Shown: positions 23,337-42,070 of the stretch, in pieces
Layout of the letters: each line of letters opens with the position of its first letter
How positions within the stretch are numbered: the first letter of the stretch is position 1
NCBI RefSeq assembly: GCF_037153975.1
Contig: NZ_JBBAYJ010000011.1
Location: 62,001 to 126,000, forward strand
Length of the DNA stretch: 64,000 nucleotides
Direction: 5' to 3'
DNA from: Aquipuribacter sp. SD81
GTDB taxonomy: Bacteria > Actinomycetota > Actinomycetes > Actinomycetales > JBBAYJ01
Position numbers and translations under genes: made by a program
The notes under the pieces: generated by a model
What the model saw: only the letters and a program-made list of their open reading frames with translations
Database searches by the model: none
What the model was told of the DNA's origin: nothing

Positions 23337-23711
23337 TCACGCCAGCAGCGTCGGCACCTCGTAGGCGGGCAGCCGACGATCACGTGTGACCAGCACCAAC
23401 CCCTCGATCGCCGCCTGGGCGACGAGCATTCGGTCGAAGGGGTCACGGTGGTGATGGGGAAGACCGGCGACGGCACGCACGTGCTCCGGCTCGACGCCCA
23501 GCAGGGCGAAGCCCATGGCGACGGCGGCGTCACCGGGGTCCTCCGGCGGAGACAGGCGACCGAGCCCCTGCTCGATGGCGATCTCCCACAGCGAGGCCAT
23601 GCTCACGAGGACGTCGTTGGCCGGGTCCGCGAGCGCCGTCCGCGCGCTGCTCTCGACCGGTTCGTCCGTGAGCAGCCACAGCAGCACGTGCGTGTCGAGG
23701 AGGTACCTCAC
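23337..23711 (-). CDS. vapC: PIN-domain ribonuclease toxin (VapC-like)
   Basis: A 124-residue PIN-fold protein. YLLDTHVLLWLL carries the first acidic residue, MASLWEIAIEQG the second, DPFDRMLVAQA the third and LVTRDRRLPAY the fourth, the usual Mg-binding set of VapC RNases that cut tRNA or rRNA. GTG 23711 overlaps the antitoxin TGA by four bases. Forms reading further upstream would run inside the antitoxin gene and are rejected. The pair lies just outside attL, 283 bases from the repeat, on the chromosome side of the integrated element. Confidence 0.85.
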   Translation of the reverse strand: MRYLLDTHVLLWLLTDEPVESSARTALADPANDVLVSMASLWEIAIEQGLGRLSPPEDPGDAAVAMGFALLGVEPEHVRAVAGLPHHHRDPFDRMLVAQAAIEGLVLVTRDRRLPAYEVPTLLA

Positions 23712-23935
23712 TGCTCGTCGAAGTGCTCGGTGAGGTCGTCCTCCCACCCGTCACGGAACACCTCTGCGGCACGCCACCGCCCGAACACGCGGGGAGCCGT
23801 CCTGTCCGGTACGGCCACGAGCCGCGCCCGAGGTCGCCCGTTCTTGGCGATGACTATGTCCTCGCCGGCCGCCGCGCGCTCGACGAGGTCCGACAGCCGC
23901 GTCTTGGCCTCGTAGAGGTTGACCTGCGTGCTCAC
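23708..23935 (-). CDS. Phd/YefM-type antitoxin paired with VapC
   Basis: A 75-residue antitoxin. VSTQVNLYEAKTRLSDLVER and GEDIVIAKNGRPRARLVAV are the DNA-binding Phd/YefM fold, and the acidic tail (FRDGWEDDLTEHFDEQ) is the part that usually wraps the toxin. Its stop overlaps the vapC-like start, the standard antitoxin-first order. GTG 23935 matches the family N-terminus; the frame upstream is not conserved in type. The pair is likely autoregulated through the antitoxin, though no operator stands out. Confidence 0.85.
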   Translation of the reverse strand: MSTQVNLYEAKTRLSDLVERAAAGEDIVIAKNGRPRARLVAVPDRTAPRVFGRWRAAEVFRDGWEDDLTEHFDEQ

Positions 23936-23993
23936 CGGACAAGGGTGCGACCTCTTGACCAGGTTGGTCAAGCAGGGGCGCCGTCAGCGGGTT

Positions 23994-24019
23994 GGGGACG
24001 AGCCGGCCTGTAAGCCGGG
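23994..24019. other. attL: 26-bp copy of the rnpB 3' end
   Basis: Identical over 26 bases to 36111-36136, beginning GGGGACGAGC and ending GTAAGCCGGG. The match stops on both sides (T against A before it, G against T after it). This copy is only the 3' tail of RNase P RNA, with no gene body attached, as expected for the displaced end of the target gene. Confidence 0.9.
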
Positions 24020-24035
24020 GACAGTTCCCGCAGTT

Positions 24036-24146
24036 CTCTGACCTGCCCGATCAGCGCTCGCTTCCGCTCTGACCTGCACTTATGCCGTTGGTCAGCGTTG
24101 AGTGCCGTTGGTCGCAAACGATGATCCTGCGGACTATCTGCGGACT
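24036..24146. repeat. Short repeats next to attL, candidate integrase arm sites
   Basis: CTCTGACCTGC occurs at 24036-24046 and 24067-24077, and its core CTGACCTGC is inverted at 36092-36100 next to attR. TGCCGTTGGTC occurs at 24083-24093 and 24103-24113, and TGCCGTT again at 36102-36108. CTGCGGACT occurs at 24127-24135 and 24138-24146, with GCGGAC variants at the end of the integrase gene. Paired repeats on both flanks suit integrase or excisionase binding. Confidence 0.5.
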
Positions 24147-24194
24147 GACCGCGGACCGCACAGCGTCACACCAGACCCGTGGAAGGGACCAACC

Positions 24195-25028
24195 ATGAAC
24201 GTAAACACCACAACCGCCGAACCGCTCGTCGTCACCGACGGCGCGCCGGACGACCTGACCATCGACGACGACACCCTGACGGTCGAGCAGATCGCCGAGC
24301 TGCCCGACGTGCAGCAGGTCGTCGTCGTGCGTGACCCGTCCCGGCCGGCAGGCCTGCACTCCGGCACGGTCGAGGGCTGGCGTCGGGTCGCGGTGCTGCG
24401 GGTGCCGGACCAGGCGACCGCCGACCGGCTCCTCGTGGGGCTCGCAAACGACGGCGGGGTCCTCGTGCCCCGGCCGCTGCTGGGGTGCCCGTCGTGGTGC
24501 GACCGCACGCCGGGCCACGGCTGGGACGACATCCTGTACGGCGAGGGCGAGGGCGGCGCGCTCGTCGTGGAGCGCACTCACGAGGGGAGGGTGCTCGCCG
24601 AGCCGTGGGCGCGGGTCGAGCTGCACCGGACCGACCGCTGGGAGGTCGCGCAGCAGCCGCAAGAGCGGGTGCTGTACGGCTCGCGAGTGCTGGTGACCGA
24701 CATCGGCCTCGACGGGCAGGGCTACCTTCACGACCCGGCCCACATCGAGCACCTGGGTGCCGCCGTGTCCGAGGCGTCGCGGCTGCTGGCGCAGGGCCGC
24801 GAGCACGGCGACCCGCTGCCAGGCCCCGGCAACGAGGGTCCGCGGCTCGGCGAGCGTGTCGTCGTCGACGAGAGGGTGCCGTCCGGCTACGTCGCGGTGA
24901 GCGACGTCGGGGGCCGCCCGGTGGCTGTGGTGTCGGGTCGGGACTCGCGTCCCACGCACGCGCGCCTGTTGCGGGCGGCCGGTTGGGAGCCCGGCGAGGA
25001 CGGGTGGGGGCCGGCCCGGCAGGAGTAG
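24195..25028 (+). CDS. Element-borne hypothetical protein with CPSWC motif
   Basis: A 277-residue protein with no function known to me. An acidic Thr/Asp-rich N-terminus (about residues 1-45) precedes GCPSWCDRTPGHGWDDILYG, a Cys-x-x-x-Cys..His arrangement like that in actinobacterial phage and plasmid proteins grouped as DUF6907, and then a beta-rich region (WARVELHRTDRW, GSRVLVTDIGLD). The Cys/His set could bind a metal. The C-terminus (HARLLRAAGWEPGEDGWG) is a separate small unit. ATG 24195 has GGAAGGGACC upstream. It is the first gene inside attL, and a strong hairpin follows it, so it is probably transcribed alone. Confidence 0.65.
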   Translation: MNVNTTTAEPLVVTDGAPDDLTIDDDTLTVEQIAELPDVQQVVVVRDPSRPAGLHSGTVEGWRRVAVLRVPDQATADRLLVGLANDGGVLVPRPLLGCPSWCDRTPGHGWDDILYGEGEGGALVVERTHEGRVLAEPWARVELHRTDRWEVAQQPQERVLYGSRVLVTDIGLDGQGYLHDPAHIEHLGAAVSEASRLLAQGREHGDPLPGPGNEGPRLGERVVVDERVPSGYVAVSDVGGRPVAVVSGRDSRPTHARLLRAAGWEPGEDGWGPARQE

Positions 25029-25060
25029 CGTCCGGCGCACCCTTCCCTGCCAAACGGCAC

Positions 25061-25099
25061 GAACCGCCCCGTTCGCCAGACAGGCGAGCGGGGCGGTTC
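25061..25099. terminator. Hairpin after the CPSWC gene
   Basis: GAACCGCCCCG and CGGGGCGGTTC form the outer stem, with TCGCC/GGCGA inside and AGACA as loop. It lies between two plus-strand genes of the element and ends 12 bases before the next start codon. Confidence 0.75.
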
Positions 25100-25111
25100 T
25101 AGGTTTCGGGG

Positions 25112-25480
25112 ATGCAAGCTGACTCGCGGTTCTCTATCCGCGTTACCAAGATCGAATCAAGGTCCGAGATCGCCGAGCTGGCAAAGTTCGCGAGCCTCGC
25201 CCGCTACGACTTCGAGCTGACGCCCCCGCTCGCCGACAGTGATGTCGTCACCTTCTCCGCCAAGTTCGTGACTCCTGCCGACGAGGACCACACGCGAGGA
25301 CTCGTGCACGACCTCACGCGACTCGTCGCGCTCGAGTCGATGACTTCCGGCCGCGCAGTGCAGGACGTTGTGGCCCAGCTCGTGGACAATCTCAAGCGGT
25401 GGGATGCGCCGCTGGATCGGCCCTTCTCTGACGGTCCGGGCATCGGCGAAGCCGATGGGCCTGCAGCTGGGGCCTCTTGA
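25112..25480 (+). CDS. Hypothetical protein, first gene of a two-gene cargo
   Basis: A 122-residue protein that I do not recognise. It opens MQADSRFSIRVTKIESRSEI, continues with two strand-like stretches (ARYDFELTPPL, VVTFSAKFVTPADE) and a helix rich in Leu/Val (GLVHDLTRLVALESM), and ends in a Gly/Ala/Pro tail. No signal peptide or membrane segment is seen. The start codon is ATG 25112. Its stop abuts or overlaps the next gene, which has an HEPN-like motif, so the two are probably cotranscribed and may act together, for instance as partner and ribonuclease. That relation is inference from gene order only. Confidence 0.6.
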   Translation: MQADSRFSIRVTKIESRSEIAELAKFASLARYDFELTPPLADSDVVTFSAKFVTPADEDHTRGLVHDLTRLVALESMTSGRAVQDVVAQLVDNLKRWDAPLDRPFSDGPGIGEADGPAAGAS

Positions 25481-25488
25481 CGCCCCCT

Positions 25489-25995
25489 ATGGACGCATTT
25501 TTTCGAGAACTTCGAGCCACTAGCACAGTCGGACTGCAGTACCTCGGCTTATGCATGACGTTGACCGTTCCGGACATCTGCGGCGCCCTAACCGCCACGA
25601 ACGGGAGAGCCAGTAAGGACCGGTACATCAGGTGGGTTGAGGAACGTCTCCATGGTTATGCCGATTGGGCAAGCGACCTATACAGCTTCCGTTGCTCACT
25701 GTTGCATCAAGGGAAGGCAATGCCCATGCACGGCCCACGCCTGCTCTTCGTCGAACGAGACGTGGCTAAGGGGTACGGCCACTTCCATATGATCACAATC
25801 GAGCAAGACGCTGGCAAGCCTGCGGCGCGGATAGTTGACGTGCCTCTGTTCATCGAAGATATGTGCAATGCCGCGGAGGTGTGGCTTTCCGAGGTACGTG
25901 ACACCGAGCCCTTCGTGACGAACTACACCACCTTTGCGCGTCGGCACCCCGAGGGCGTGCCGCCATTCGTTGTCGGGGGTCCCGTTTTTGGCTAA
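25489..25995 (+). CDS. HEPN-like protein with R-x4-H motif
   Basis: A 168-residue protein. The stretch LYSFRCSLLHQGKA contains Arg-x4-His, the RNA-cutting motif of HEPN domains; the family I recall with R-C/N-SLLHQG also shares the later PLFIEDMCNAAEVWL block seen here. Upstream helices (YIRWVEERLHGYADWASD) fit the HEPN bundle. HEPN proteins often act as toxin or abortive-infection RNases. Codon use is looser and GC clearly lower than in the chromosome, a sign of recent transfer. I use ATG 25489; TTG 25477, overlapping the previous stop, would add four residues. A 7-bp inverted repeat spans its stop codon. Confidence 0.65.
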   Translation: MDAFFRELRATSTVGLQYLGLCMTLTVPDICGALTATNGRASKDRYIRWVEERLHGYADWASDLYSFRCSLLHQGKAMPMHGPRLLFVERDVAKGYGHFHMITIEQDAGKPAARIVDVPLFIEDMCNAAEVWLSEVRDTEPFVTNYTTFARRHPEGVPPFVVGGPVFG

Positions 25996-25997
25996 AT

Positions 25998-26168
25998 CTA
26001 GCCAACGATGAACTCCACCACGCCGCCCGTCACCCGCACACCCTGCACAACCCCCTCCCGAGTCTCGTCGTCGAAGAGCACGCAGACGGGCATGGAGGGT
26101 GGCAGTGCAGACAGGACAGTTAGGACCCAGGCGACCGTCCCCTGACGCTCAAGGTCATCTCGACTCAT
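25998..26168 (-). CDS. Small protein downstream of the tape measure gene
   Basis: A 56-residue protein (MSRDDLERQGTVAWVLTVLS, then PVCVLFDDETREGVVQGVRV). The second part looks like two or three beta strands. Its ATG overlaps the tape measure stop codon by four bases (ATGA), so it is translated with that gene and would be the last gene of the minus-strand chain. No family is recognised; genes in this position in siphophages are usually small tail or tail-tip proteins, but this one is too short to assign. Confidence 0.55.
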   Translation of the reverse strand: MSRDDLERQGTVAWVLTVLSALPPSMPVCVLFDDETREGVVQGVRVTGGVVEFIVG

Positions 26169-29100
26169 AGACCAACACCCCAAGCCGCACCCAGCGCCGC
26201 GATCTCACGCTCAGCGCGCAGTGCCTCCCTCACGACCCGGCCGGCCAGCTCGGTGCCGTCAGTCTGGACGTTCACGTTGCGGTTGATCGTCACCGCCCCG
26301 CCCACACCAACGGCGGTCGCCGGGGTGGTCGGGATGACCGTCTCCGGCTTGCCCGTGCCGTTGTAGGTGAAGCCCGGCAGCAGCGGGCCACCCGCGTCCC
26401 GTACGTGCGGGTTGAGGAGGCTTCCGCGCTCCGGCACGACACCGCCCCGAGCGAGACCAAGGTGCAGGTGGTCGTCGTGGTCGGTCCGGCCGCCGATCTC
26501 CCGGTAGTAGACCTGCCGGAAGCTCGCCATCTTGAGGACCGTCGGAAGGATGCCGCGGACGAAGGCGTTCTCGATCGAGTTCGCCCCGCCCGGGCCGTAG
26601 TTCACGTCGATGGCGCGGTTTCGGTAGTGCAGCGACGTCGGGGAGTGCGCGCCAGGGGTGACACCACCGAACGCGGGATGCCCCGAGACGCGAGCACCCT
26701 TGGACTGCAGCCACTTGCCGATCGACACGAGGTCGCCGCCGGCCGGGACGTTCGCCGCGAGCCACTTCGTCACCGCCGCGTAGGCGGCGCCCATCGTGGC
26801 CTGCGCGCCCGTGCTCAGTGGCGTGCGGAACGGGTCGGTGGAGTACGGCTTCGGGACGCTGCTCGCGGTGGTGAAGCCACCCGCGATGACCCCGCCCGTC
26901 GCGTACGCCTCGTACACCTCGGGGATGGGCCGCCCGGACCGCGCGGCGGCGTTGGCCCGGGCCACATAGTCCGTGCCGACGGCCTTCGTCCACTCCGGGC
27001 GCATGACGGCCTCACCGCCGGACAGGTCCAGCCGGCCGCCCGTCGCGCTGTAGAACTGATGCACGTCCCGGCCAGGTGACCAGCCCGGCATGACACCGCC
27101 CGTGGCGTAGCCGTTGGCCCGCTTGGTGTCGTCAAACCGGATAGGCGTCTTGCCGACCGCGGACAGCACCGGGTTGACGCCGGACACGAGGGCAATCCCG
27201 TACTTGTCGGCGATGCGGCGGACCTCTTCCGCGCCGATGCCCAGCTCCTCGGCGATGCCCTCAGCGGTGTTCTTGGCGCCCTTGCGGCCCAGGCGCTCCA
27301 TGACCTCGAGCTCGGCGACAACACCCTCACGGCCGAACTGTGCGTCGGCGATGAGCAGGTCGGCCATGCGCTGGAACTCGGCGTCGGTGGCGTCGGCCAT
27401 GTCGGCGGTGATCTGTGCGCCCTCGGCGCCCATGTCGGCGAGGATGCCGGCGACCTCGAGGCCGCCGCGCTCGGTGACGGTGACGAGGTTCGCGCGCCAC
27501 TGCTCCTGGTCGGCGATCTGCTGCTCGAGCATGTCGGCGTACTCGGTGAGGGTGAGGCTGACGCCCTCGTAGTAGTCCTGCCATGAGTCCTCGGCGTCCT
27601 CGGTCGCGGCGGCTGTCGCCTCGGCGGCCTGCCGCTCGGCCTCCTCCTTATCGGCGAGGAGCTGCTGGTAGGCGCTCAGCGGCTCGACGAACGCCTCGGC
27701 GATGCCGGCCATGCTGCGTCGCCACTCCTCGAGGCGGTCTGCCGCGGTGTCGGCCTGCTCGCCGGAGTCCGCGATGGCGCCCGTCATGGGGTCGATCGCG
27801 CCAGCCGCGCCCGCGGCGGCCTCGGTCATGGCGTCGATGCCGCCGCGAGCCTCGTAGTACTCGGCGGCGGCCTTGCTGACGGTGCCGGCGGCGACCTCCT
27901 CGGCGGCGGCCAGGCGGCGGGTCTGCTCCTGCGCGTCGCCGAGGGCAGCGGACTGCTGACCGAGGACGTCCCGCAGCCGCTCAAGGTCAGCCTCAGTCTG
28001 GTTGTTCATGCCGGAGGTCGCCATCTGCGCCTCATTCAGCGCGGCGTTGGCCTCCGACATGCGGTTGATCCGCTCGGTGACGTCCTCGTACGCCTGGCCG
28101 CCCTCGGTGATGGCGGTGACGAGGTCGGACGTGCTGACGCCGAGCCGTTCGGCGGCCTCGAGCGCCCCGCGGTCCTCCAACGCCTTGGCGGCGACGGTGC
28201 GGGAGGCGTCGGTGACCGCGCCAGTTAGCTCGTCGAGGCTGCTGGCGTAGTCGTCCACGGCCTGCTTCTGGTCGACCCAGGAGTCGATGAGGACGTACCC
28301 GACGGTGCTCAGTCCGGCCAGCGCGAGACCGATAGGCCCGGCCGCACGCCCGGCAGCCCGCAGACCGCCAGCGGCGGCGTGACCCGCGGGACCCATCTTG
28401 GCGAGGCTCACGACGCCGGCCTCGAGCCGCGGAATGGTGATGAGCAGCCCGCCGCCGAGCAGCCCGACCCCGGCCGTGACGAGGCCCACGGCGGTGACGG
28501 CCTGCTGGGCGCCGTCGGGCATGTCCCCGAAAACGTTCACGAGGGTGGTGGCGTCCTGCGTGGCCTCGCGCAGCGGGCCGTTGCTGGCCTCGCCGAGACC
28601 GATGAGGGAGGTCTCCACGGAGCCCAGGAACTCCTCGGCGTCCCCGCGCAGGTTGTCCATCTTGGCGGCGGCCTGCTCGGCGGCGAACCCCTGGTCGTCC
28701 ACGGCGCGGGTCCACGTGGCGATGCCCTCAGCGCCCTGCTGGTAGATCACTGACGCGGCACGAACGGCGTCCGAGCCGAAGATGGTCGCCAGAGCACTGT
28801 TGCGCTGCTCCGGCGTCAGGTCGGCCAGGGAGTCGCGCAGGTTGCCCGCGAACGCCTCGAGCCCGACGAACTCCCCGCCAGCGTCGTAGGCGCTGATGCC
28901 GAGCTCGTTCATCAGGTCTCGGGCCTCGGCGCTCTGCGGGGTGAGGCGCTGCAGCATGCTCTTGAACGACGTGCCCGCGTCGGAACCGAGCAGCCCGGCG
29001 GACGCGAAGGCGGTCAGCGCGCCGGTCGTCTCCTCGATCGTGAGGCCGGTCTGTTCGGCGACGAGGCCGGACTGCCCGAGCGCCTGCCCGAGGTCGGACA

Positions 29101-29704
29101 CGTCGCCCTGCGCCTTGCCGGCGCCCGCGGCGAGCAGGTCCGCCACGTGCGTGACGTCCTGCCCCTCGAGCTTGAACTGCGTGAGGGCGGTGGCGGCGAT
29201 GCCGGCGGCGTCGGCGACCTCGAGCCCACCAGCCGACGCCAGGGCGAGGGCGCCGTCGAGCCCACCGTCGAGGATGTCCGCGGCCGAGACACCGGCCTTG
29301 CTCAGTTCGGTGATGCCCGCGGCGGCCTCCGTCGCGCTGAACGCGGTGTCGGCGCCGGCCTGGATGGCGGCCTCGCGGAGGTCGTCCAGCGTCTTCCCGG
29401 TCGCGCCGGTCGCGGCACGCACCTGCGACATCTCGGCGTCGAAACGGGAGAACGCGACCGCAGTGGCAGTCAGGCCGGCGCCGGCCGCGAGGCCCACGCC
29501 CAGGAACGCCTTGCCGGTGTCGGTCCACGCCTTCTCGTTGTCGTGCGCGTGCTGCGCCAGCCGGGACATAGCACCGCGAGAGCGCTTCTCGGCGTCCTCG
29601 GTCTTCTTGCCGACGTCCTCGGTGGACTTCTCGGCGGTCCGCATCGCGCGGACGTACTCGCTGACGTTCGCCATCAGGCGGATGAGCACGGTCCTGTCGG
29701 CCAT
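26165..29704 (-). CDS. Phage tail tape measure protein with M15-like peptidase
   Basis: A 1,179-residue protein. Residues about 70-400 are the TP901-type tape measure core (AFSRFDAEMSQVRAATGATG, ELSKAGVSAADILDGGLDGA, GLLGSDAGTSFKSMLQRLTP). A hydrophobic Gly/Ala stretch (VGLVTAGVGLLGGGLLITI) and long helices with ADMADATDAEFQRMADLL-type sequence follow. Near the C-terminus SLHYRNRAIDVN (about 1024-1035) and HDDHLHLG (about 1076-1083) give the His, Asp and His of an M15/VanY-type zinc peptidase, which would cut peptidoglycan during DNA entry. The protein sets tail length and lines the tube. Two small genes sit directly upstream, and no other tail gene is present. Confidence 0.92.
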   Translation of the reverse strand: MADRTVLIRLMANVSEYVRAMRTAEKSTEDVGKKTEDAEKRSRGAMSRLAQHAHDNEKAWTDTGKAFLGVGLAAGAGLTATAVAFSRFDAEMSQVRAATGATGKTLDDLREAAIQAGADTAFSATEAAAGITELSKAGVSAADILDGGLDGALALASAGGLEVADAAGIAATALTQFKLEGQDVTHVADLLAAGAGKAQGDVSDLGQALGQSGLVAEQTGLTIEETTGALTAFASAGLLGSDAGTSFKSMLQRLTPQSAEARDLMNELGISAYDAGGEFVGLEAFAGNLRDSLADLTPEQRNSALATIFGSDAVRAASVIYQQGAEGIATWTRAVDDQGFAAEQAAAKMDNLRGDAEEFLGSVETSLIGLGEASNGPLREATQDATTLVNVFGDMPDGAQQAVTAVGLVTAGVGLLGGGLLITIPRLEAGVVSLAKMGPAGHAAAGGLRAAGRAAGPIGLALAGLSTVGYVLIDSWVDQKQAVDDYASSLDELTGAVTDASRTVAAKALEDRGALEAAERLGVSTSDLVTAITEGGQAYEDVTERINRMSEANAALNEAQMATSGMNNQTEADLERLRDVLGQQSAALGDAQEQTRRLAAAEEVAAGTVSKAAAEYYEARGGIDAMTEAAAGAAGAIDPMTGAIADSGEQADTAADRLEEWRRSMAGIAEAFVEPLSAYQQLLADKEEAERQAAEATAAATEDAEDSWQDYYEGVSLTLTEYADMLEQQIADQEQWRANLVTVTERGGLEVAGILADMGAEGAQITADMADATDAEFQRMADLLIADAQFGREGVVAELEVMERLGRKGAKNTAEGIAEELGIGAEEVRRIADKYGIALVSGVNPVLSAVGKTPIRFDDTKRANGYATGGVMPGWSPGRDVHQFYSATGGRLDLSGGEAVMRPEWTKAVGTDYVARANAAARSGRPIPEVYEAYATGGVIAGGFTTASSVPKPYSTDPFRTPLSTGAQATMGAAYAAVTKWLAANVPAGGDLVSIGKWLQSKGARVSGHPAFGGVTPGAHSPTSLHYRNRAIDVNYGPGGANSIENAFVRGILPTVLKMASFRQVYYREIGGRTDHDDHLHLGLARGGVVPERGSLLNPHVRDAGGPLLPGFTYNGTGKPETVIPTTPATAVGVGGAVTINRNVNVQTDGTELAGRVVREALRAEREIAALGAAWGVGL

Positions 29705-29962
29705 CTACTTGTCCTCTCCTCGGAAGGCGGCCTCAGCACGCCTCAACTTGTTGGCGTGCGGTGCGGGGGTGGCCGCGTACCGCAGCTCGTCCAGCAGGAC
29801 CGCCATGGCCTCCATGAGCCCGCAGGCGGCATCGCCGTCGTACGTCTCGGCGACGCGCCGGCCCATGTCGCGCAACGCGCCGGCCATGACGGACTTCTCG
29901 CGCTGCGACAGGCCCGCGGCGGCGCGCACCACGGCCCGGCCGGCGTCGTCCACGGCGCTCAT
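29705..29962 (-). CDS. Hypothetical protein directly before the tape measure gene
   Basis: An 85-residue, mainly helical protein: MSAVDDAGRAVVRAAAGLSQ, DMGRRVAETYDGDAACGLME and ANKLRRAEAAFRGEDK. ATG 29962 overlaps the stop of the gene before it (ATGA), and its own stop touches the tape measure start. In siphophages the pair before the tape measure gene usually encodes tail assembly chaperones; position and helical content fit, but I see no slippery frameshift site and sequence similarity cannot be judged. Frames starting further upstream overlap the preceding gene and are rejected. Confidence 0.6.
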   Translation of the reverse strand: MSAVDDAGRAVVRAAAGLSQREKSVMAGALRDMGRRVAETYDGDAACGLMEAMAVLLDELRYAATPAPHANKLRRAEAAFRGEDK

Positions 29963-30207
29963 GCGGTGCCTCGGCTCGTTCGGGCTCGGTCGAGGGCGCC
30001 GGACCAGCCCGGGCTGCGCTGCAGGATCGCGTAGACCTGGGGCCAGTCGCCCGGGTCGACCCCGTGCTCGGCGAGCCATGCGGCGCGGGCGCGCATCCGG
30101 TCGGCGTAGGCCCCCGGGGACTCCTGCACGCCACGCGGCGCGCAGAGGTGGGCCGGGAGGACGAGGAGCCCGCCTGCGGGTGTCGTGACGGTTCTACGCC
30201 GTGCCAC
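29959..30207 (-). CDS. Hypothetical protein of the tail module
   Basis: An 82-residue protein beginning VARRRTVTTPAGGLLVLPAH, with ESPGAYADRMRARAAWLAEH and GDWPQVYAILQRSPGW. GTG 30207 overlaps the end of the terminase small subunit gene by 14 bases. It could be the first of a tail-chaperone-like pair ahead of the tape measure gene or an unrelated adaptor. I do not recognise a family, and the assignment rests on position. Confidence 0.55.
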   Translation of the reverse strand: MARRRTVTTPAGGLLVLPAHLCAPRGVQESPGAYADRMRARAAWLAEHGVDPGDWPQVYAILQRSPGWSGALDRARTSRGTA

Positions 30208-30565
30208 GGGCCGCACCTCCCCAGCGGGCGGCGTGCCCTCGTCGTGAGCGGGCACGCATCGGGCTGACGACCCCGCCGTCCTCGTCGGGCAGGTCGAGCT
30301 GCGACAGCAGCCGGCCCAGCGCGAGGCGGTGCTGGCGGACCTCGGCGAGGGCGGGGTGCACGCGCGGTTGTCCGGTGCTGCCGCGGACGGTCGTGCCGTC
30401 CTGCTCAACCGAACGGCGCAACGCGTCGATCTCGTCGAGCAGTCGGCAGCACTCCGCCAGCAGCTCGGCCTCGGCGTCGCTGAGGTCGAACGTGCCGAGC
30501 GTCGTCGCCCAGAACCGCCGGCCACGAGCCCCGAGGGCCGCCGGGGCGCGGCGTGGGGCGCTCAC
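30194..30565 (-). CDS. P27-type phage terminase small subunit
   Basis: A 123-residue protein. RRFWATTLGTFDLSDAEAEL, LLAECCRLLDEIDALRRSV and GSTGQPRVHPALAEVRQHRL follow the order of actinophage P27-family small terminase subunits: a helical N-terminal DNA-binding part, then a GS.GQ.R.HP hinge, then LALGRLLSQLDLPDEDG. The small subunit recognises the packaging site and hands DNA to a large subunit motor. No large subunit gene is present in the element, so it would have to recruit one from elsewhere. GTG 30565 overlaps the stop of the preceding short frame (GTGA). Confidence 0.8.
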   Translation of the reverse strand: MSAPRRAPAALGARGRRFWATTLGTFDLSDAEAELLAECCRLLDEIDALRRSVEQDGTTVRGSTGQPRVHPALAEVRQHRLALGRLLSQLDLPDEDGGVVSPMRARSRRGHAARWGGAARGTA

Positions 30566-30807
30566 GGGGCCACCCCGGGAAACCGGGCGCAGGCAGGTCG
30601 CGGGCTGCGAGCGACCTCACCAGCGGTTCGAAGTGATGGGGTCGCTTGGCCCCCTCGCCCGGGGTGGTGGGCGCGACCGGCCGGCGCAGCCGAGGTCTCG
30701 GCGGTGCGAGAGCTCACGCTCGCTCGGCTTCGTGTCCGTGGTCCACGGTCCCCGTCGTGCGTGCCGTGGGCGGTGACGTTGACGCCGGTCCGGTCGCGGG
30801 TGCTCAT
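30562..30807 (-). CDS. Possible small protein before the terminase subunit
   Basis: An 81-residue frame, MSTRDRTGVNVTAHGTHDGD and then an Arg/Ser/Ala/Pro-rich stretch of low complexity. It is supported by GGAAGGAC about 7 bases before ATG 30807 and by a four-base overlap (GTGA) with the terminase subunit. Composition is like that of shadow frames in GC-rich DNA, and I recognise no domain, so it may simply be a leader between two genes. Confidence 0.35.
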   Translation of the reverse strand: MSTRDRTGVNVTAHGTHDGDRGPRTRSRASVSSRTAETSAAPAGRAHHPGRGGQATPSLRTAGEVARSPRPACARFPGVAP

Positions 30808-30826
30808 GGTGGTGTCCTTCCGTCGC

Positions 30827-31897
30827 TCAGCGGTGGGAGTGGAAGCGCTCGCGCCAGGCGGCGGCGCGAGCCTCGAGGCTGCGGGCGAGGCGCTGCGGTG
30901 CCCCGGGGTCTTCGGGGTTGGCGAACTCCTCGCGCCAGTGCCGGGCGCCTGCGCGGCTGCGGTGGGTGTTGGCGTCGCGCGCGTACTGCTCGACGGCGCC
31001 GTTGGTCGCCTGCACCTGCGCGGGCGTGGCGACCCGCGGCAGCGCCTCGGGGTGCTGGGCCTGCCAGAGCATCGCCTCGAGTGACAGCCAGTCCTCGGGC
31101 CACGGCGCCGGGCGTGCGGGTCGAACGGTCCCGTCTGCGTCCTCGACCTTCAATCCGTAGCGGTGCGCCACGAGGTCGGGCCACGCGGCGAGCGGGTCGC
31201 CGAGGTACAGCGTGGCCTGCCGGAGGTCAGCGCCGGTCGTGTCGGCCGCCTTGTACAGCTGCTGGCCGCTGACTCGCACGCGGCGGTACTCCTCGTGCAG
31301 GCGGGCCAGGTGCTGCCACTGCTCGACCTTGCCGTGAGAGATGGCCGCCTCGGCGTCACTGACACCGGCGAGGCTCCGGGTCGCTTCGCTCACTCGCTCG
31401 AGGACGTCGGTGAGCTGGGCGTCGACGTAGCCGAACAGGACCCCCGACTCGATCGCGTCGCGCAGCGCCTGACCGACTGCACTGGACAGGGTGGAGCGCT
31501 GGCGGGTGACGGCGGCCACGACCGCGGTGCGGGCCTCGTACTCCGCGATCTTCGCCCGGGCGGCGCTGACAAGCGCCTCGACGTCGACCGGGCGCCCGGA
31601 CGCGATGGCCTCCTGCACCACCTCGTCGGACGCGACGACGACCGGGTCCACGCCTCCGGCGCCGAGGCCGGGCTGCCGCGGTCCGAGGGCTACGAGGGCG
31701 GCAGCGGCGGCCTGGTAGTCCCCCACGCCCGCGAGTGCGTCGGCGACGGGCGTGTCGGTCTGGGCGTAGAACGTCCGCAGGGTGGGGTCCTGGCCGTGGA
31801 AGTCCAGGGCGGCCCGCAGCTCGGTGGGGTTCACCGGACGCCGCTGCGTGCGTCGCCGGCTGGTGCTGCTCGTGGCGGGCTCGGTCGTCGTGGTCAT
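30827..31897 (-). CDS. Helical hypothetical protein, 356 aa
   Basis: A mostly helical protein of unknown role in the middle of the element. After a disordered Thr/Arg lead (MTTTTEPATSSTSRRRTQRR) come PTELRAALDFHGQDPTLRTF, a coiled-coil-like region (VSAARAKIAEYEARTAVVAA, HGKVEQWQHLARLHEEYRRV) and a Trp-rich C-terminal part (PWPEDWLSLEAMLWQAQHPE, GARHWREEFANPEDPG). It has no membrane segment, and ATG 31897 overlaps the preceding stop (ATGA). It could be a scaffold or remodelling factor acting on helper particles, but this is speculation from position and helix content. Confidence 0.6.
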   Translation of the reverse strand: MTTTTEPATSSTSRRRTQRRPVNPTELRAALDFHGQDPTLRTFYAQTDTPVADALAGVGDYQAAAAALVALGPRQPGLGAGGVDPVVVASDEVVQEAIASGRPVDVEALVSAARAKIAEYEARTAVVAAVTRQRSTLSSAVGQALRDAIESGVLFGYVDAQLTDVLERVSEATRSLAGVSDAEAAISHGKVEQWQHLARLHEEYRRVRVSGQQLYKAADTTGADLRQATLYLGDPLAAWPDLVAHRYGLKVEDADGTVRPARPAPWPEDWLSLEAMLWQAQHPEALPRVATPAQVQATNGAVEQYARDANTHRSRAGARHWREEFANPEDPGAPQRLARSLEARAAAWRERFHSHR

Positions 31898-32064
31898 GGG
31901 CGGGTCTCCTGCTCTGTCTGGCGCCGGAGGGCGGCGAGTCGCTTGCGGGCGGTACGGGATCGGTTACGGCGGCGCATGCGGGCGCGGTGTCGGTGGCGGG
32001 GCCACTGCCCGCCATCGCGGCGGACGTAGCCGGCCGGGGGCACGAACAGGTCGAGGTCGCTCAC
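31894..32064 (-). CDS. Small basic hypothetical protein, 56 aa
   Basis: The protein is VSDLDLFVPPAGYVRRDGGQ followed by a strongly basic tail (HRARMRRRNRSRTARKRLAA). GAGGAG lies about 6 bases before GTG 32064. Its start overlaps the stop of the WhiB-like gene and its stop overlaps the 356-residue gene, so it is part of the coupled chain. The tail could bind nucleic acid; no family is recognised. Confidence 0.6.
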   Translation of the reverse strand: MSDLDLFVPPAGYVRRDGGQWPRHRHRARMRRRNRSRTARKRLAALRRQTEQETRP

Positions 32065-32354
32065 GCGCTCCTCCTCGTGGTGGCGGGCTGAGCCGTGCGG
32101 TCGCGGCCGCCCCACACGCCGGCCCGCTCGCGGTTGGTCGCGGCGTACTCGTGGCAGGCGGCGGTGTGGGGGCAGTAGCCGCACGCCTCAGCGGCCTGCT
32201 GGCGGTCCTCGTGGTCCTCGCTCGTCCAGAGGTCTGCGTCGGTGCCCTGGCACGGCGGGCGGTGGTCCTGGCACGCGTCGAGCAAGGCAGCGAGCAGAGG
32301 CACGGCAGCGGGACGGAGGCCCAGACCGCCCGCGGGGCTGGGGGCGCGGCTCAC
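32061..32354 (-). CDS. WhiB-like iron-sulfur regulator
   Basis: A 97-residue WhiB-like protein. Four cysteines in the usual order (DHRPPC upstream, then CGYCPHTAAC, i.e. C-x2-C-x5-C) would hold a [4Fe-4S] cluster, and GVWGGRDRT is the signature turn before the basic end that meets DNA or sigma factor. Actinobacteria and their phages use these proteins to redirect transcription. GTG 32354 overlaps the stop of the DUF3631 ATPase gene (GTGA). Within this element it may control its own late genes or alter helper or host promoters; which one cannot be told. Confidence 0.85.
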   Translation of the reverse strand: MSRAPSPAGGLGLRPAAVPLLAALLDACQDHRPPCQGTDADLWTSEDHEDRQQAAEACGYCPHTAACHEYAATNRERAGVWGGRDRTAQPATTRRSA

Positions 32355-33499
32355 GCGGCCTCACCACCGAAGAGGTCGTACGGCGGGTCCTCGGTTTCGC
32401 TGGTTTCGCTGGTTTCGCTGTCCTCGGGGGGCGGAGGGAGGTAGCGGGACCAGGCGTCCTCGAAGTCCTCTCGGCGGTAGCCCTTGCGGTTGATCGCCTT
32501 GATCTGGTGGCTACCGATGTCGTACTTCCGGAGACGTTGGGCTAGCCCTCGTCCGTCGAGGCTCTTGCCTCTCAGGTCGTCCCAGGGACTCTCCTCAAGG
32601 GCGTGAAGAGCGCTCAGCAGCTCGTCGGTGCCCATCCAGTCGGCGTCCTGCTCGGTGAAGACACCGCGGAGGTCTCGGAGCAGTCGGACGTTGAGGCTGA
32701 CTGCCTCTCCGTCCCCCCGGGACTGCGAAACCAGCGAAACCGCCGAAACCCTGGCGCGCTCCGGCCAGTCCCCGCCGGCCGCGTCGGCGACCGCGAGCAG
32801 CGCCTCCCATACGTCTGCGGCGCGGTCCTCGATGCCCGTGGGCATGTCGGGCCAGGCGTCGGTCAGCGACGGGGTCTTGGCCTGCATCCAGGCCGCCAGC
32901 CGCAACTGAAGGTCGGTCCCGGTCTGCGCGTGCAGCCGGTGCCGGAACGGTTCGACCCGCTCGCCCGGTGCCCGGCGCCTCATGCGGATGACGACCGAGC
33001 GGGACATGATCGTGTCAGGCAGGTCGTCTAGGCCGGCCATCGCGACGGGGGCGTAGGCGGGGAAGGTGTCGACCTCCACGGCCTTGCCCTTGACCACGCA
33101 ACGGTGGGCCTGCGCGCCGCGACGGTGCCCGGCGTTGATGAACCCGCGCAGGTCCTCGTGGTCCTTCGCGGCTCGAGGACCGAAGATCGTGTCGGCCTCG
33201 TCGAGCAGGATGGTCGGCACCCCGTCGTCGCCGCTGACGAGTCGGAACAGGGCCGCGGTCGAGCTGTTGAGGCTGAACAGGGCGCGGGGCACCAGGAGCT
33301 CGAGCACCTCCAGCACGCGGGTCTTTCCCGACCCCGGCTCAGGGCTCAGCACCGCCAGGCGGGGGGTCGACTCAAAGGCGCTGAGGGCGTGGACGTGCGC
33401 GGCCCACAAAGTCACCGCGGTGGCGCACTCGGGCGAGGGGAAGGCGACAAAGCGACGCAGGTACGTCTCCACGTCGGTCAGGAGGTCTGCACCATTCAC
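32351..33499 (-). CDS. DUF3631 ATPase/helicase-like protein
   Basis: A 382-residue ATPase. Walker A is SPEPGSGKTRVLEVLE and Walker B is ILLDEADTIFG; DDLPDTIMSRSVVIRMRRRA is the sensor/arginine-finger region. The N-terminal part is DLLTDVETYLRRFVAFPSPE and the C-terminal part ends in an acidic tail with SETSETSETED, produced by a short DNA repeat. DUF3631 proteins are found on actinobacterial plasmids and integrated elements and are thought to help DNA replication or unwinding. GTG 33499 overlaps the preceding stop. Longer frames upstream are shadows. This is the only replication-type gene in the element. Confidence 0.88.
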   Translation of the reverse strand: MNGADLLTDVETYLRRFVAFPSPECATAVTLWAAHVHALSAFESTPRLAVLSPEPGSGKTRVLEVLELLVPRALFSLNSSTAALFRLVSGDDGVPTILLDEADTIFGPRAAKDHEDLRGFINAGHRRGAQAHRCVVKGKAVEVDTFPAYAPVAMAGLDDLPDTIMSRSVVIRMRRRAPGERVEPFRHRLHAQTGTDLQLRLAAWMQAKTPSLTDAWPDMPTGIEDRAADVWEALLAVADAAGGDWPERARVSAVSLVSQSRGDGEAVSLNVRLLRDLRGVFTEQDADWMGTDELLSALHALEESPWDDLRGKSLDGRGLAQRLRKYDIGSHQIKAINRKGYRREDFEDAWSRYLPPPPEDSETSETSETEDPPYDLFGGEAA

Positions 33500-33789
33500 G
33501 CGACCACCTCGGCCCGACGCCAGGAGTACGCGACCTCGGCCGCGATCTGTGCCGCAGTCTTCGGGGCCGGCTTGTGCGCGTAGGACCGCGCATCGGCCAC
33601 CGCGGACCGCTGCCGGGCGAGGTAATCCTCTAGCCACTGCGGACTCGGCAGGGGCGCCACGGTGACACCGGACACCGCGCAGGCGTCCGCGTAGCCGTCG
33701 AGCCATCCCCAGCGGTACAGCGGCTCGGAACGGACCTCGTCGGGGGTGTCCACGGCGGTTGCCTCGCCGAAGGTGCGCGGGTACGTCAC
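33496..33789 (-). CDS. Hypothetical protein, 97 aa
   Basis: It begins VTYPRTFGEATAVDTPDEVR and contains YRWGWLDGYADACAVSGVTV and SPQWLEDYLARQRSAVADAR. It is rich in Tyr and Trp, soluble and of unknown family. GTG 33789 overlaps the stop before it and its TGA overlaps the DUF3631 start, both by four bases, so it is translated as part of the chain and could be a cofactor of the ATPase. Confidence 0.6.
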   Translation of the reverse strand: MTYPRTFGEATAVDTPDEVRSEPLYRWGWLDGYADACAVSGVTVAPLPSPQWLEDYLARQRSAVADARSYAHKPAPKTAAQIAAEVAYSWRRAEVVA

Positions 33790-34079
33790 TGGCGCACCTC
33801 CCGCGGCGAAGCGGCAGACCAACAGCAGACGGTGGGACCAGCCGCCGCCGCGCGGATAACCTCGGCGCCGGCCCAGCCACAGCCGTCCTGCGCCGCGCAC
33901 AGCTCGCGCAGGTGGTCGCGCTCGAGGTCGTGGGGGACGACCACCAGGCCGCTGCGTGCGTCCACAACCGAATGGCGGTCGTCGCGCGTAAGGTAAGGAT
34001 TGACGTAGCCGCTCGCCCGCTGTTCCGTCCTCGACGCCTCACGGTCGGTCCCCGTGGGGCGTCGGTCGTTGCCGGGCAT
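33786..34079 (-). CDS. Hypothetical protein, 97 aa
   Basis: The protein starts MPGNDRRPTGTDREASRTEQ and contains VNPYLTRDDRHSVVDARSGL, then a Cys-rich part with LRELCAAQDGCGW and PTVCCW. The four Cys might bind a metal, although spacing does not match a family I know. ATG 34079 shares one base with the stop of the HTH gene (TGATG). The second gene of the chain. Confidence 0.55.
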   Translation of the reverse strand: MPGNDRRPTGTDREASRTEQRASGYVNPYLTRDDRHSVVDARSGLVVVPHDLERDHLRELCAAQDGCGWAGAEVIRAAAAGPTVCCWSAASPREVRQ

Positions 34080-34282
34080 CAGGCAGGCACCGCCGCCTCG
34101 GCGCGCTCTCGCTCGATCAGCCAGGCGTCTACTGCCTCGCGGCGGTACAGCCGACGCTTGCCGAGCCTGACGCTTGGCGGGGCCACGCCCCGGTGCACCC
34201 AGTAGTGAAGCGTCGCCTCAGGGATGCGCAGGTGCTCGGCAACCTCCGGCGTCGTCATGATCTCCGGCTCATCTGCGGCCAT
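34079..34282 (-). CDS. AlpA/MerR-type HTH protein, probable excisionase
   Basis: A 67-residue DNA-binding protein: EIMTTPEVAEHLRIPEATLH, then YWVHRGVAPPSVRLGKRRLY and RREAVDAWLIERERAEA. This is the winged helix of AlpA/Xis proteins, which direct excision or activate the integrase of mobile elements. ATG 34282 has GGGAGTCGAG upstream. It is the first gene of the long minus-strand chain and is divergent from the plus-strand gene at 34383. A perfect palindrome lies between the two, so both directions may be switched by one repressor. Confidence 0.85.
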   Translation of the reverse strand: MAADEPEIMTTPEVAEHLRIPEATLHYWVHRGVAPPSVRLGKRRLYRREAVDAWLIERERAEAAVPA

Positions 34283-34330
34283 CTCGACTCCCGTTCGCGT
34301 CGGTCGCTGCGGGTTGCCCCACAGTTGGTG

Positions 34331-34359
34331 TTGACAGCGTGCCTTGCCAGTTGGCAAGG
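34331..34359. promoter_or_regulatory. Divergent control region: TTGACA and an 18-bp palindrome
   Basis: CCTTGCCA, GT, TGGCAAGG is a perfect palindrome at 34342-34359. A consensus -35 hexamer TTGACA (plus strand) is at 34331-34336, so the palindrome would cover the spacer and -10 region. The half site TTGCCAG recurs at 34404-34410. No repressor gene is identified; the plus-strand gene at 34383 with its HTH-like C-terminus is one candidate. Confidence 0.6.
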
Positions 34360-34382
34360 TGTCCTCGTCAGGGGTCGTCGAT

Positions 34383-34967
34383 GTGTTGGCGAGGTTGATG
34401 GGGTTGCCAGAGCGTGAAGTGACGTGGCGTTGGTCGAGCAACTTCGTGCAGCTCGGCGGTGGCGACACCTTCGTGCCAGATTCGGCTCACCTTGTTGGCC
34501 GCGCCCTCGACGGCTCGCCGGACCTAGAGGCGCGCTTCGAGGTACGTCAGGGCGTCCCGGAGTGCGTGGACTTCCGCCTTCGCGCACAGCCCGGCGGTCG
34601 GGCAGTGAGGAGCTCAGACTTGCGGCTCTTCAACCTTCATGGCTTCACGCTGAACGCCTTCATGCCCGCCGCGAGGCGACGTAGCCGCGAGCACAACGGC
34701 ACAGCCGCCCCACCCGAGCGGGGAACCCCGGAGTGGCACGCGGCCTGGTCTGACTTCGACCGCGCGCAACATGCCGCAAAGACGCGAGACCGTTCGGACG
34801 AGCTCGCCGAGGTCGCTCGGGTCTACCGCGCCAATGTCACCGGCAACCCGACTGCCGAGGTTGAGCGGGAGATGCACTACACCCGGCGTACCGCGGCTCG
34901 CCGGGTACAAGAGGCCCGCAAAGCCGGCCTTCTGCCACCCACGACTCCGGGCAAGAAGAAGGGGTGA
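34383..34967 (+). CDS. Element protein with HTH-like C-terminus before integrase
   Basis: About 194 residues. The C-terminal 60 (EVARVYRANVTGNPTAEVER, TRRTAARRVQEARKAGLLPP, TTPGKKKG) match a type common next to integrases in actinobacterial elements: an HTH-like unit with a basic end. The N-terminal half (TWRWSSNFVQLGGGDTFVPD, FTLNAFMPAARRRSR) is unfamiliar. The start is uncertain: GTG 34383 has AGGGG 8 bases upstream and is preferred over TTG 34344 inside the palindrome and ATG 34398. It ends 4 bases before the integrase start, so the two form an operon. It may be a regulator of the lysogeny-like state. Confidence 0.65.
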   Translation: MLARLMGLPEREVTWRWSSNFVQLGGGDTFVPDSAHLVGRALDGSPDLEARFEVRQGVPECVDFRLRAQPGGRAVRSSDLRLFNLHGFTLNAFMPAARRRSREHNGTAAPPERGTPEWHAAWSDFDRAQHAAKTRDRSDELAEVARVYRANVTGNPTAEVEREMHYTRRTAARRVQEARKAGLLPPTTPGKKKG

Positions 34968-34971
34968 CCGC

Positions 34972-36087
34972 ATGAGCAGCATCGCCAAGCGCCCGGACGG
35001 CCGGTGGCGCGCTCGCTATCGCGGCCCCGACGGCAGGGAGCGCGCCCGGCACTTCGACCGCAAGGTCGACGCCACACGTTGGCTCGACGAGGCCACGGCG
35101 GGCATCGTCACGGGGCAGTGGGTCGATCCCCGCGCCGGCCGCCAGACGTTCCGGCAGTACGCCGAGCAGTGGCGCGCGGCGCAGGTGCACCGGCCCTCGA
35201 GCGCGGCCCACGTCGAGACCATGCTGCGGCGCCACGTTTACCCGGTCCTCGGCGACCTGCCGCTGTCCTCCGTCGTGCCGAGCACGGTGCAGGCGTGGGT
35301 CAAGGGCCTGGTGCTGGCGCCGAGCACGGTGCAGGTGGTCCACGGCATCGTGGCCGGAGTCTTCCGCGCGGCTGTGCGGGACCGACGCATCGCGTCCAAT
35401 CCGTGCGAGGGCACGCGCCTGCCCAAGCGCGAGCGGCACCGCGTCGACCCGCTGACTGTCGAGCAGGTCGCCGCGCTTGCCGAGGCAGCCGCACCGCAGT
35501 GGCGTGCGTGCGTCGTCCTCGGAGCGGGTGCAGGGCTGCGCAACGGTGAGGCGCTGGGACTGACGGTCGACCGGGTCGACTTCCTGCGTCGCTCGCTGCT
35601 GGTCGACCGCCAACTCGTCACAGTGCCGGGTACTCCACCGCGGCTCGGCCCGCCCAAGACGGCCGCCAGCGTGCGCACCGTGCCGCTGCCCTCAGTCGTC
35701 CTCGACGAGCTCGCCCGGCACGTCGAGCGCCACGGCACCGGACCTGACGGGCTGCTCTTTGTCGGCGCGCAGCGGCAGGCAATGACCCGCACCGCGTTCG
35801 GCAACCTCTGGCGTCCGCTCGTGGCCCGTTCAGGGCTGCCGGACGGCACGAGGTTCCACGACCTTCGCCACCACTACGCCTCACTGCTCATCCGTCACGG
35901 GGAGAGCGTCAAGACGGTCCAGGCACGGCTCGGGCACGCCTCGGCGGCCGAGACGTTGGACACCTACAGCCACCTCTGGCCGGACAGCGACGACCGGACA
36001 CGAGACGCCGTACAGGGCGCCCTCGGTGCGGCCCTGGCCGGAGATCTTGCGGACCAGGCGCGGACTAGGGAGGTGGTGCAGACCTGA
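34972..36087 (+). CDS. int: Tyrosine recombinase (integrase)
   Basis: A 371-residue phage-type integrase. The N-terminal arm-binding part reads SSIAKRPDGRWRARYRGPDG, the core-binding domain covers about residues 60-150, and the catalytic residues are visible: Arg in GAGLRNGEALGL (about 188), His and Arg in FHDLRHHYASLL (about 296), His in RLGHASAAETLD (about 320) and the nucleophile Tyr in DTYSHLW (about 331). ATG 34972 lies 4 bases after the preceding stop. The gene ends 23 bases before attR, the usual place for an integrase whose target is the adjacent gene end, here rnpB. Confidence 0.95.
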   Translation: MSSIAKRPDGRWRARYRGPDGRERARHFDRKVDATRWLDEATAGIVTGQWVDPRAGRQTFRQYAEQWRAAQVHRPSSAAHVETMLRRHVYPVLGDLPLSSVVPSTVQAWVKGLVLAPSTVQVVHGIVAGVFRAAVRDRRIASNPCEGTRLPKRERHRVDPLTVEQVAALAEAAAPQWRACVVLGAGAGLRNGEALGLTVDRVDFLRRSLLVDRQLVTVPGTPPRLGPPKTAASVRTVPLPSVVLDELARHVERHGTGPDGLLFVGAQRQAMTRTAFGNLWRPLVARSGLPDGTRFHDLRHHYASLLIRHGESVKTVQARLGHASAAETLDTYSHLWPDSDDRTRDAVQGALGAALAGDLADQARTREVVQT

Positions 36088-36110
36088 AAGCGCAGGTCAG
36101 GTGCCGTTTA

Positions 36111-36136
36111 GGGGACGAGCCGGCCTGTAAGCCGGG
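36111..36136. other. attR: 26-bp repeat inside the rnpB 3' end
   Basis: The same 26 bases as 23994-24019, here continuous with the complete RNase P RNA. The repeat covers the 3' strand of helix P1 and the neighbouring stem, so insertion rebuilds the RNA end and leaves rnpB functional. Confidence 0.9.
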
Positions 36137-36493
36137 TTCTGTACCGGTGCTCGCGCACCGGCGGCGACCATCCATCTAGGACCGCCGTCGCCGACGGTCT
36201 CGTGCGGTCTACCCGGACGCTCGGGCGGGCCGCCCTCGGACGCGTCCTGTCTGACCTTGCTCCAGGTGGGGTTTGCCTAGCCGCACCGGTCACCCGGCAC
36301 GCTGGTGGTCTCTTGCACCACCCTTTCACCCTTACCGCCGTCCCGGTCTCCCGGTCCGGCGGCGGTCTTCTCTCTGTGGCACTGTCCCGCGGGTCACCCC
36401 GGGTGGGCGTTACCCACCACCTCGCCCTGCGGAGCCCGGACTTTCCTCGGCGGGCCCGGAGGCCCGACGCGGTCGCCCGGCCGGCTCGTCCGG
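36111..36493 (-). ncRNA. rnpB: RNase P RNA, bacterial class A
   Basis: Read on the minus strand, the RNA (about 383 nt) contains the conserved GAGGAAAGTCCGGGCTCC near the 5' end, then ACAGAGAGAAGACCGCCG, GGTAAGGGTGAAAGGGTG, and the 3' AGAACCCGGCTTACAG. P1 is formed by GACGAGCCGGCC at the 5' end (36490-36479) and GGCCGGCTCGTC at the 3' end. This RNA is the catalytic part of the enzyme that matures tRNA 5' ends. The exact ends are estimated from P1. The integrated element lies directly after its 3' end. Confidence 0.93.
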
Positions 36494-38395: not shown

Positions 38396-38710
38396 CTAGT
38401 GGACGACCTCGAGACCGACGACGCAGCCCACGATGCCGAGCAGCAGCAGGACCTTCACGACCGAGAACGCCTCCGCGCCGGTCGACATCGCCCAGCCGAC
38501 CGTGAGGGCGGCGCCGATCCCGACCCACACCGCGTAGGCGGTGCCGACCGGCAGACCGCGCATGGCGAACGCGAGCCCGGCCATGCTGAACGCGAGAGCG
38601 GCCCCGAAGACGACGGTCGGACCGAGACGGGTGAAGCCCTCGGTGCGCGAGAGCGCGGTGGCCCAGACCGCCTCGAGGACGCCGGACGCGATGAGAACGA
38701 GCCAGTGCAC
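38396..38710 (-). CDS. gdx: SMR-family guanidinium exporter (Gdx/SugE type)
   Basis: A 104-residue, four-helix inner-membrane transporter of the small multidrug resistance family. [20 protein letters not shown] contains the central Glu of helix 1 that binds substrate and proton, and [16 protein letters not shown] is the Gdx/SugE-type helix 3 signature, rather than the broad-drug EmrE type. It would export guanidinium in exchange for protons as an antiparallel dimer. GTG 38710 follows GAGGAG. A guanidine-III riboswitch ends 13 bases before the start, which strongly supports the substrate. Confidence 0.92.
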
Positions 38711-38723
38711 GGGTGTCTCCTCT

Positions 38724-38764
38724 GTGCCGTCGTGTCGCTGGCCGGGTACGGCACCCTCGTCCGG
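38724..38764 (-). promoter_or_regulatory. Guanidine-III riboswitch (ykkC-III)
   Basis: On the minus strand the leader reads CCGGACGAGG, GTGCCGTACCCGG, CCAGCGACACGACGGCAC. This matches the compact guanidine-III consensus, in which CCGGACGAGG opens the domain, CCGTACCCGG closes the first stem, and ACGACGGC.C forms the pseudoknot. The GAGGAG ribosome site follows within a few bases, so guanidine binding probably frees it and turns on translation of the exporter. Confidence 0.92.
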
Positions 38765-38860
38765 AGACCTCGTGCGGTCCTGGTAGGACGTTCTCAAGGT
38801 GCCCGGGCCCCGGGCAAGCCCGGCGGCGGTGACCCTCGTCTCCGACCGACCGTCGGCGAC

Positions 38861-42008: not shown

Positions 42009-42070
42009 GCGACCGGAGGCTAGTGCGTCACGGGGCGCCCGCGGCAGGGCGCCGGGCCGACGGCGCAGGG

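Follow-up and report, generated by a model that had tools for sequence, protein, structure and literature searches.

A satellite-like element at the 3' end of rnpB in Aquipuribacter sp. SD81 and a related lineage of actinobacterial integrases linked to the RNase P RNA gene

The window, that is, the whole stretch of 64,000 nucleotides of the Aquipuribacter sp. SD81 genome analysed here, almost certainly harbors a satellite-like element of 12.1 kb (positions 23994-36136) that integrated at the last 26 nt of the RNase P RNA gene (rnpB) by means of its own tyrosine integrase, leaving the gene rebuilt and its P1 and P4 helices intact. The same insertion occurs in several dozen other actinobacterial genomes, and the essential rnpB gene thus regularly serves small mobile elements as a docking site. 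On a broader scale, RNase P RNA is likely to constitute a further regular class of RNA-gene attachment sites, served by an Actinomycetota-wide integrase lineage specialised on the P4 and P1 3' strands, with an int-Xis-attP module that has passed between satellites, mobilizable elements and plasmid-like integrative elements. Mechanistically this is ordinary gene-restoring integration of a known kind; novel are the class of target and how widely the lineage that uses it is spread. Open-access full texts searched for rnpB as an integrase target contained no such report, and the mentions of rnpB in them concern genotyping or promoter uses; earlier mention in subscription papers or supplements is possible.

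The rnpB gene (36112-36488, minus strand) encodes a class A RNase P RNA and is intact in the integrated state, matching the complete RF00010 model (1-367; 283.8 bits, E 1.1e-91). Its last 26 nt, assigned as the attR core (36111-36136) from the exact repeat, 36 att pairs and P1 pairing, recur without a mismatch (26/26) at the far end of the element (23994-24019), where this attL core represents the displaced original rnpB tail. Identity between both copies breaks off within 1-2 bases at either side. The pair is the sole exact repeat of at least 26 bp in the window with copies kilobases apart, and the rnpB tail region has only these two matches, attR and attL, in the entire assembly. Since 36 homologous attL/attR pairs share this block, placed identically in rnpB, the repeat is beyond chance. 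Thus the element is bounded by direct repeats of the 3' end of its target gene, with the full RF00010 match at attR and only the tail copy at attL, in agreement with what an earlier note on this DNA had claimed on both points. The target is RF00010 rather than a tRNA or tmRNA gene, the closest tRNA being located at 42069.

In the RNA sense the 26 nt read CCCGGCUU ACA GGCCGGCUCG UCCCC. By the established structure of RNase P RNA, the first eight nucleotides, CCCGGCUU, are the P4 3' strand (36136-36129), part of conserved region V; a linker (36128-36126) separates them from GGCCGGCUCG, the P1 3' strand (36125-36116), and the 3' tail follows. The P4 strand is a pseudoknot strand and is missing from the Rfam structure line. 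The repeat had been proposed to comprise the P1 3' strand and an adjoining stem; this is the case, and the adjoining stem is the P4 3' strand.

Alignment of the attL and attR copies of the 36 pairs delimited 36111-36136 as the common block. Identity drops from 36/36 at position 36136 to 13/36 at 36137, which places one limit of the block where the P4 strand begins; on the opposite side the agreement tapers off below 36111. Only a few positions inside the block show mismatches (36111-36113, 36115, 36120, 36123, 36127 and 36135). The base at 36130 differs among hosts (A, G or C) but is always equal at the two ends of a given element, which is what a strand-exchange region in need of a match should show. 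Most hosts have GGC-N6-GCC, a small inverted repeat centred on CTGTAN. From this dyad centre and the agreement of 36130 within pairs, we infer that CTGTAAG (36125-36131), between the arms GGC and GCC, is the overlap region. In tRNA targets the crossover arms often derive from one hairpin; at the rnpB site they belong to two different helices, P4 and P1.

In the mechanism proposed, the integrase would recombine attP, which contains a copy of the 26-nt rnpB tail, with attB, the identical 26-nt end of the rnpB gene in the host. Crossover would probably take place within CTGTAAG, flanked by the short inverted arms that form part of P4 and P1 in the RNA. The original tail would be displaced to the far end (attL) and rnpB would gain a new, element-borne tail (attR), so that P1 and P4 stay intact. 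If the exchange falls within catalytic-core strands (P4, conserved region V), this would account for the conservation of the target as well as for the need of an element to bring along a faithful tail. The integrase and the element's helix-turn-helix (HTH) protein probably work via arm sites that lie no more than about 140 bp from the core, on both sides.

Consistent repeats occur at both ends of the element, in the layout of arm-type sites, and are regarded as putative sites of this kind. The ends hold 8 repeated 9-mers, versus 0.15 in shuffles. A putative arm-type site, GCAGGTCAG, lies 10 bp off the core on the integrase side (36092-36100, plus strand), and two inverted copies of it, CTGACCTGC, at the opposite end (24038-24046 and 24069-24077, plus strand), followed by two direct copies of TGCCGTTGGTC (24083-24093 and 24103-24113, plus strand), which may be arm or Xis sites. 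A GCGGACC/GCGGACT pair lies in the 3' end of the integrase gene (36049-36066, plus strand), the same motif being present at the other end (24129-24157). With at most one mismatch, GCAGGTCAG was recovered in 26 of 39 related loci versus 1.1% of control segments, and GCGGACT/C pairs in the integrase end in 23/39 versus 0.5% of controls.

P1 pairing of the host RNA is predicted to be retained after integration. All ten P1 pairs are present in 32 of the 36 integrated states, and P1 is kept in all five cases of att mismatch, where the attL and attR versions both pair by G-U wobble. Of the four states with fewer pairs, L089 is truncated by its contig end, and L075 probably reflects a truncated alignment. 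The sequence downstream of rnpB is now the convergent integrase gene, placed tail to tail with its stop 24 bp short of the rnpB tail, and the integration could for this reason be seen as a switch changing the expression or 3' processing of rnpB instead of being neutral to the host. This is improbable, given that P1 and P4 are kept and that no sequence evidence of regulation was found.

Uninterrupted sites were recovered in two other genera. A query of 380 nt that joins the distal flank of the Mycobacterium aurum element to the rnpB of that genome is uninterrupted in 35 of 60 Mycobacterium genomes and split in M. aurum itself (1-206 and 178-380, 15.7 kb apart), with agreeing junction bases; a joined query from Blastococcus TF02-8 is contiguous in 3/24 relatives and split in the carrier. 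In the window's genus, the element is absent from two congeners (G001 and G002), each of which contains the 26-mer once, as anticipated in the earlier note for relatives lacking the element. On the left, the window shares with them only a block that begins 1.7 kb away from the end of rnpB in G001 and 5.9 kb away in G002, and the 2.6 kb to the left of position 23994 (transporter, ppk2, VapBC) do not lie beside the rnpB 3' end in either. The contiguity of both flanks in uninterrupted relatives thus holds for the family, in Mycobacterium and Blastococcus, and only roughly for the window, where the empty site lacks base precision since the flanking 2.6 kb are unconserved in the two congeners. A VapBC-like toxin-antitoxin pair (23337-23971) is situated directly left of attL and is missing from the same place in the congeners, indicating that the left flank is variable.

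An immediate left flank that is unconserved beside rnpB, and the existence of truncated rnpB copies elsewhere (L186 and L187), would also fit a repeat that is a by-product, either of another att site nearby or of an rnpB duplication whose remnant is the left copy, the adjacency of integrase and rnpB being coincidental. Such an origin is hardly credible in view of the 36 att pairs with the same limits, the contiguous empty sites in two other genera, the circular attP contigs and the near-constant distance between integrase and rnpB, and for the integrase family these four observations refute it. Integration at the rnpB 3' end with rebuilding of the gene, as originally put forward, is upheld by the repeat, the adjacent integrase, the att pairs, the empty sites of relatives, two circular attP contigs and the P1 pairing.

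The circular contigs, L135 (8,186 bp) and L132 (15,101 bp), derive from IMG/VR metagenomes, and their ends are identical over 127 bp, which usually marks a circular assembly. Both contain the integrase, the core and the opposite element arm, with attP inside and no rnpB, and are best read as excised circles. In 15 further carriers, a tail-pattern search recovered two exact-pattern copies each, located in 13 of them on one contig and the same strand, 11.2-29.1 kb apart; the other measured elements range from 2.3 to 22.6 kb. No measured element is of typical full-prophage size, though longer ones might have escaped. In Blastococcus endophyticus (L159/L160), three successive copies of the rnpB tail, spaced by 15.8 and 5.3 kb and the middle one with one mismatch, match the expectation for tandem elements.

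The distribution of the integrase lineage was assessed by a genome scan with the integrase only, blind to rnpB, which yielded 80 loci with 43-66% identity. An rnpB gene is present in the same locus for 57 of these, and the spacing between integrase and rnpB is near-constant across related loci. Both genes are tail to tail in 38/57, with the integrase stop 15-70 bp off the rnpB 3' end in 36 of these. Eight integrases run parallel to rnpB, 173-243 bp off its 3' end (L084, L088, L091, L092, L095, L096, L098 and L102), and in 11 the integrase is further away or its end is altered. In a maximum-likelihood tree the rnpB-linked integrases group together in a single large clade (73 rows, 95/94), within which some rnpB-less members are nested. 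The same-direction arrangement occurs in two separate places of the tree and apparently arose twice (Acidimicrobiia and Mycobacteriaceae). The 23 of 80 related integrases without a nearby rnpB include some for which the contig ends too soon; an Rfam search near 14 rnpB-less related integrases found no rnpB. Others of the 23, such as L064 and L065, use other targets, and a search for att repeats in both revealed none that was convincing. Ten more distant integrases from relatives of the window have no rnpB nearby, and four of the ten lie by tRNA genes. Within this integrase lineage the rnpB target is the rule. The description of rnpB as a much less usual target than tRNA or tmRNA genes remains valid against those classes but does not extend to the lineage itself.

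The window element has a G+C content of 71.3%, versus 74.7% and 75.8% in the flanks. Its tyrosine integrase (371 aa; 34972-36087, plus strand; PF00589, 6.9e-21; phrog_1, 2.9e-71) shows in translation the R...HxxR...H...Y motifs of tyrosine recombinases (GLRNGEA, HDLRHHY and LGHAS...DTYSH). The genes described next, up to the tape measure gene, are on the minus strand. An HTH_17/MerR-like protein (34079-34468; PF12728, 1.3e-12; phrog_66, 4.3e-10) is the probable excisionase, and HTH/Xis-like homologues adjoin the integrase in most related elements. It is followed by a DUF3631 protein of uncertain start, probably a replication ATPase/primase partner (32351-34042; PF12307, 1.3e-62), and by a WhiB-like regulator (32061-32354; PF02467, 1.9e-11) of a type also found in L153, L162 and L126. 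A 356-aa protein (30827-31897) has no family match and no homologue among 197 other genomes, and its fold is not predictable (pLDDT 48). Next come a terminase-small-subunit-like (TerS-like) protein (30194-30565; phrog_1496, 6.6e-18), a 124-aa protein with no family match (29705-30079) and a tail tape measure protein of 1179 aa (26165-29704; PF10145, 1.2e-47; phrog_1533, 1.1e-93), whose residues 1-400 share 49-56% identity with Arthrobacter phage counterparts. Between 26165 and 30565, the tape measure and TerS-like genes stand without further head or tail genes. Three plus-strand ORFs at the attL end (24195-25028, 25112-25480 and 25477-25995) have no Pfam match.

No large terminase, portal or capsid gene of a complete prophage is among the element's predicted proteins. 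What it encodes is the gene set of phage-inducible chromosomal islands (PICIs) and similar satellites, namely an integrase, a regulator, a replication gene and TerS with an incomplete virion set; the element does not have the set of a capsid-forming satellite (its own TerL, portal and major capsid, with no tail genes). The favoured reading, judged from gene content, is that of a satellite whose own TerS would redirect packaging and whose tail ruler would be altered or supplied. Having a TerS-like and a tape measure gene while lacking those for a large terminase, portal and capsid, it would presumably depend on a helper. Alternatively, it could be a full prophage in decay that lost most head and tail genes, the integrase, TerS-like and tape measure genes being left by accident. 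The single phage structural genes would agree with this, as would the genome itself, in which a PF10145 search of the assembly found neither another tape measure gene nor a helper prophage. Decay is nonetheless unlikely: the reading frames are uninterrupted, the att sequences at the two ends agree exactly, the element falls within the size range of its family (2.3-29 kb), and two Nocardioides elements at the same site, L153 and L161, also keep a tape measure gene, to which L153 adds a WhiB relative.

Other relatives of this satellite-like element carry different cargo. The closest integrase found (69% identity) belongs to L129 (1-10198), which ends in rnpB and encodes terminase, portal, head protease and major head genes, with no tail gene among the proteins scanned. 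L130 (1-9747) is alike, with terminase, portal and major head genes and no tail gene found; by this gene set, the two metagenomic rnpB-site elements resemble capsid-forming satellites. TrwC relaxases occur in L157 and L164, and a pSAM2-type RepSA in L163, all at the same rnpB site. The common part across the differing cargo is the int-HTH-att module.

In several respects the window element resembles the islands recovered by the Islander method (PMC4383910): the integrase lies beside the target, attP holds a fragment of the gene's 3' end, the target is restored, the displaced fragment is found at the other end, and tandem arrays occur. It differs in that the target is rnpB instead of a tRNA or tmRNA gene (tDNA), the only genes covered by that method (PMC4383910). 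PICIs, including candidate mycobacterial ones, are likewise of about 10-16 kb with an integrase, an HTH/excisionase, a replication protein and a TerS-like gene (PMC10654092), and the rnpB-site relatives L129 and L130 share with them packaging and capsid-type genes. Unlike PICIs, the window element has a tape measure gene and no capsid gene, and the mycobacterial PICIs shown with tyrosine integrases lie in tRNA genes (PMC10654092). Elements of the pSAM2 type (L163) or with TrwC relaxases (L157 and L164) share the integrase lineage and the rnpB site but differ in transfer biology, only the int-Xis-attP module being common. The Arthrobacter phages TripleJ and Kukla, among the closest isolated-phage relatives, have integrases of the same superfamily (∼38% identity) but are full-size phages.

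Island tools restricted to tRNA/tmRNA genes miss rnpB. In the TIGER resource, targets are classed as tRNA/tmRNA, protein-coding or intergenic (PMC12424338), so that rnpB insertions could count as intergenic and may hide among those. As one landing site common to very different small elements, rnpB may be a place where these compete or stack in tandem. Since rnpB is essential and conserved and usually occurs as a single copy, these integrases suggest themselves as a basis for integration vectors in Actinomycetota.

Two further observations were made. A second, truncated rnpB (model 20-222) occurs in two mycobacterial genomes (L186, 6256-6452; L187, 6272-6468) inside a stretch of ∼7.6 kb that is 100% identical between both, which suggests a recent mobile element or contamination. 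To the right of the window's rnpB, a guanidine-III riboswitch (38721-38797) heads a small multidrug-resistance-type transporter gene (38396-38797, minus strand) that probably encodes a guanidine exporter.
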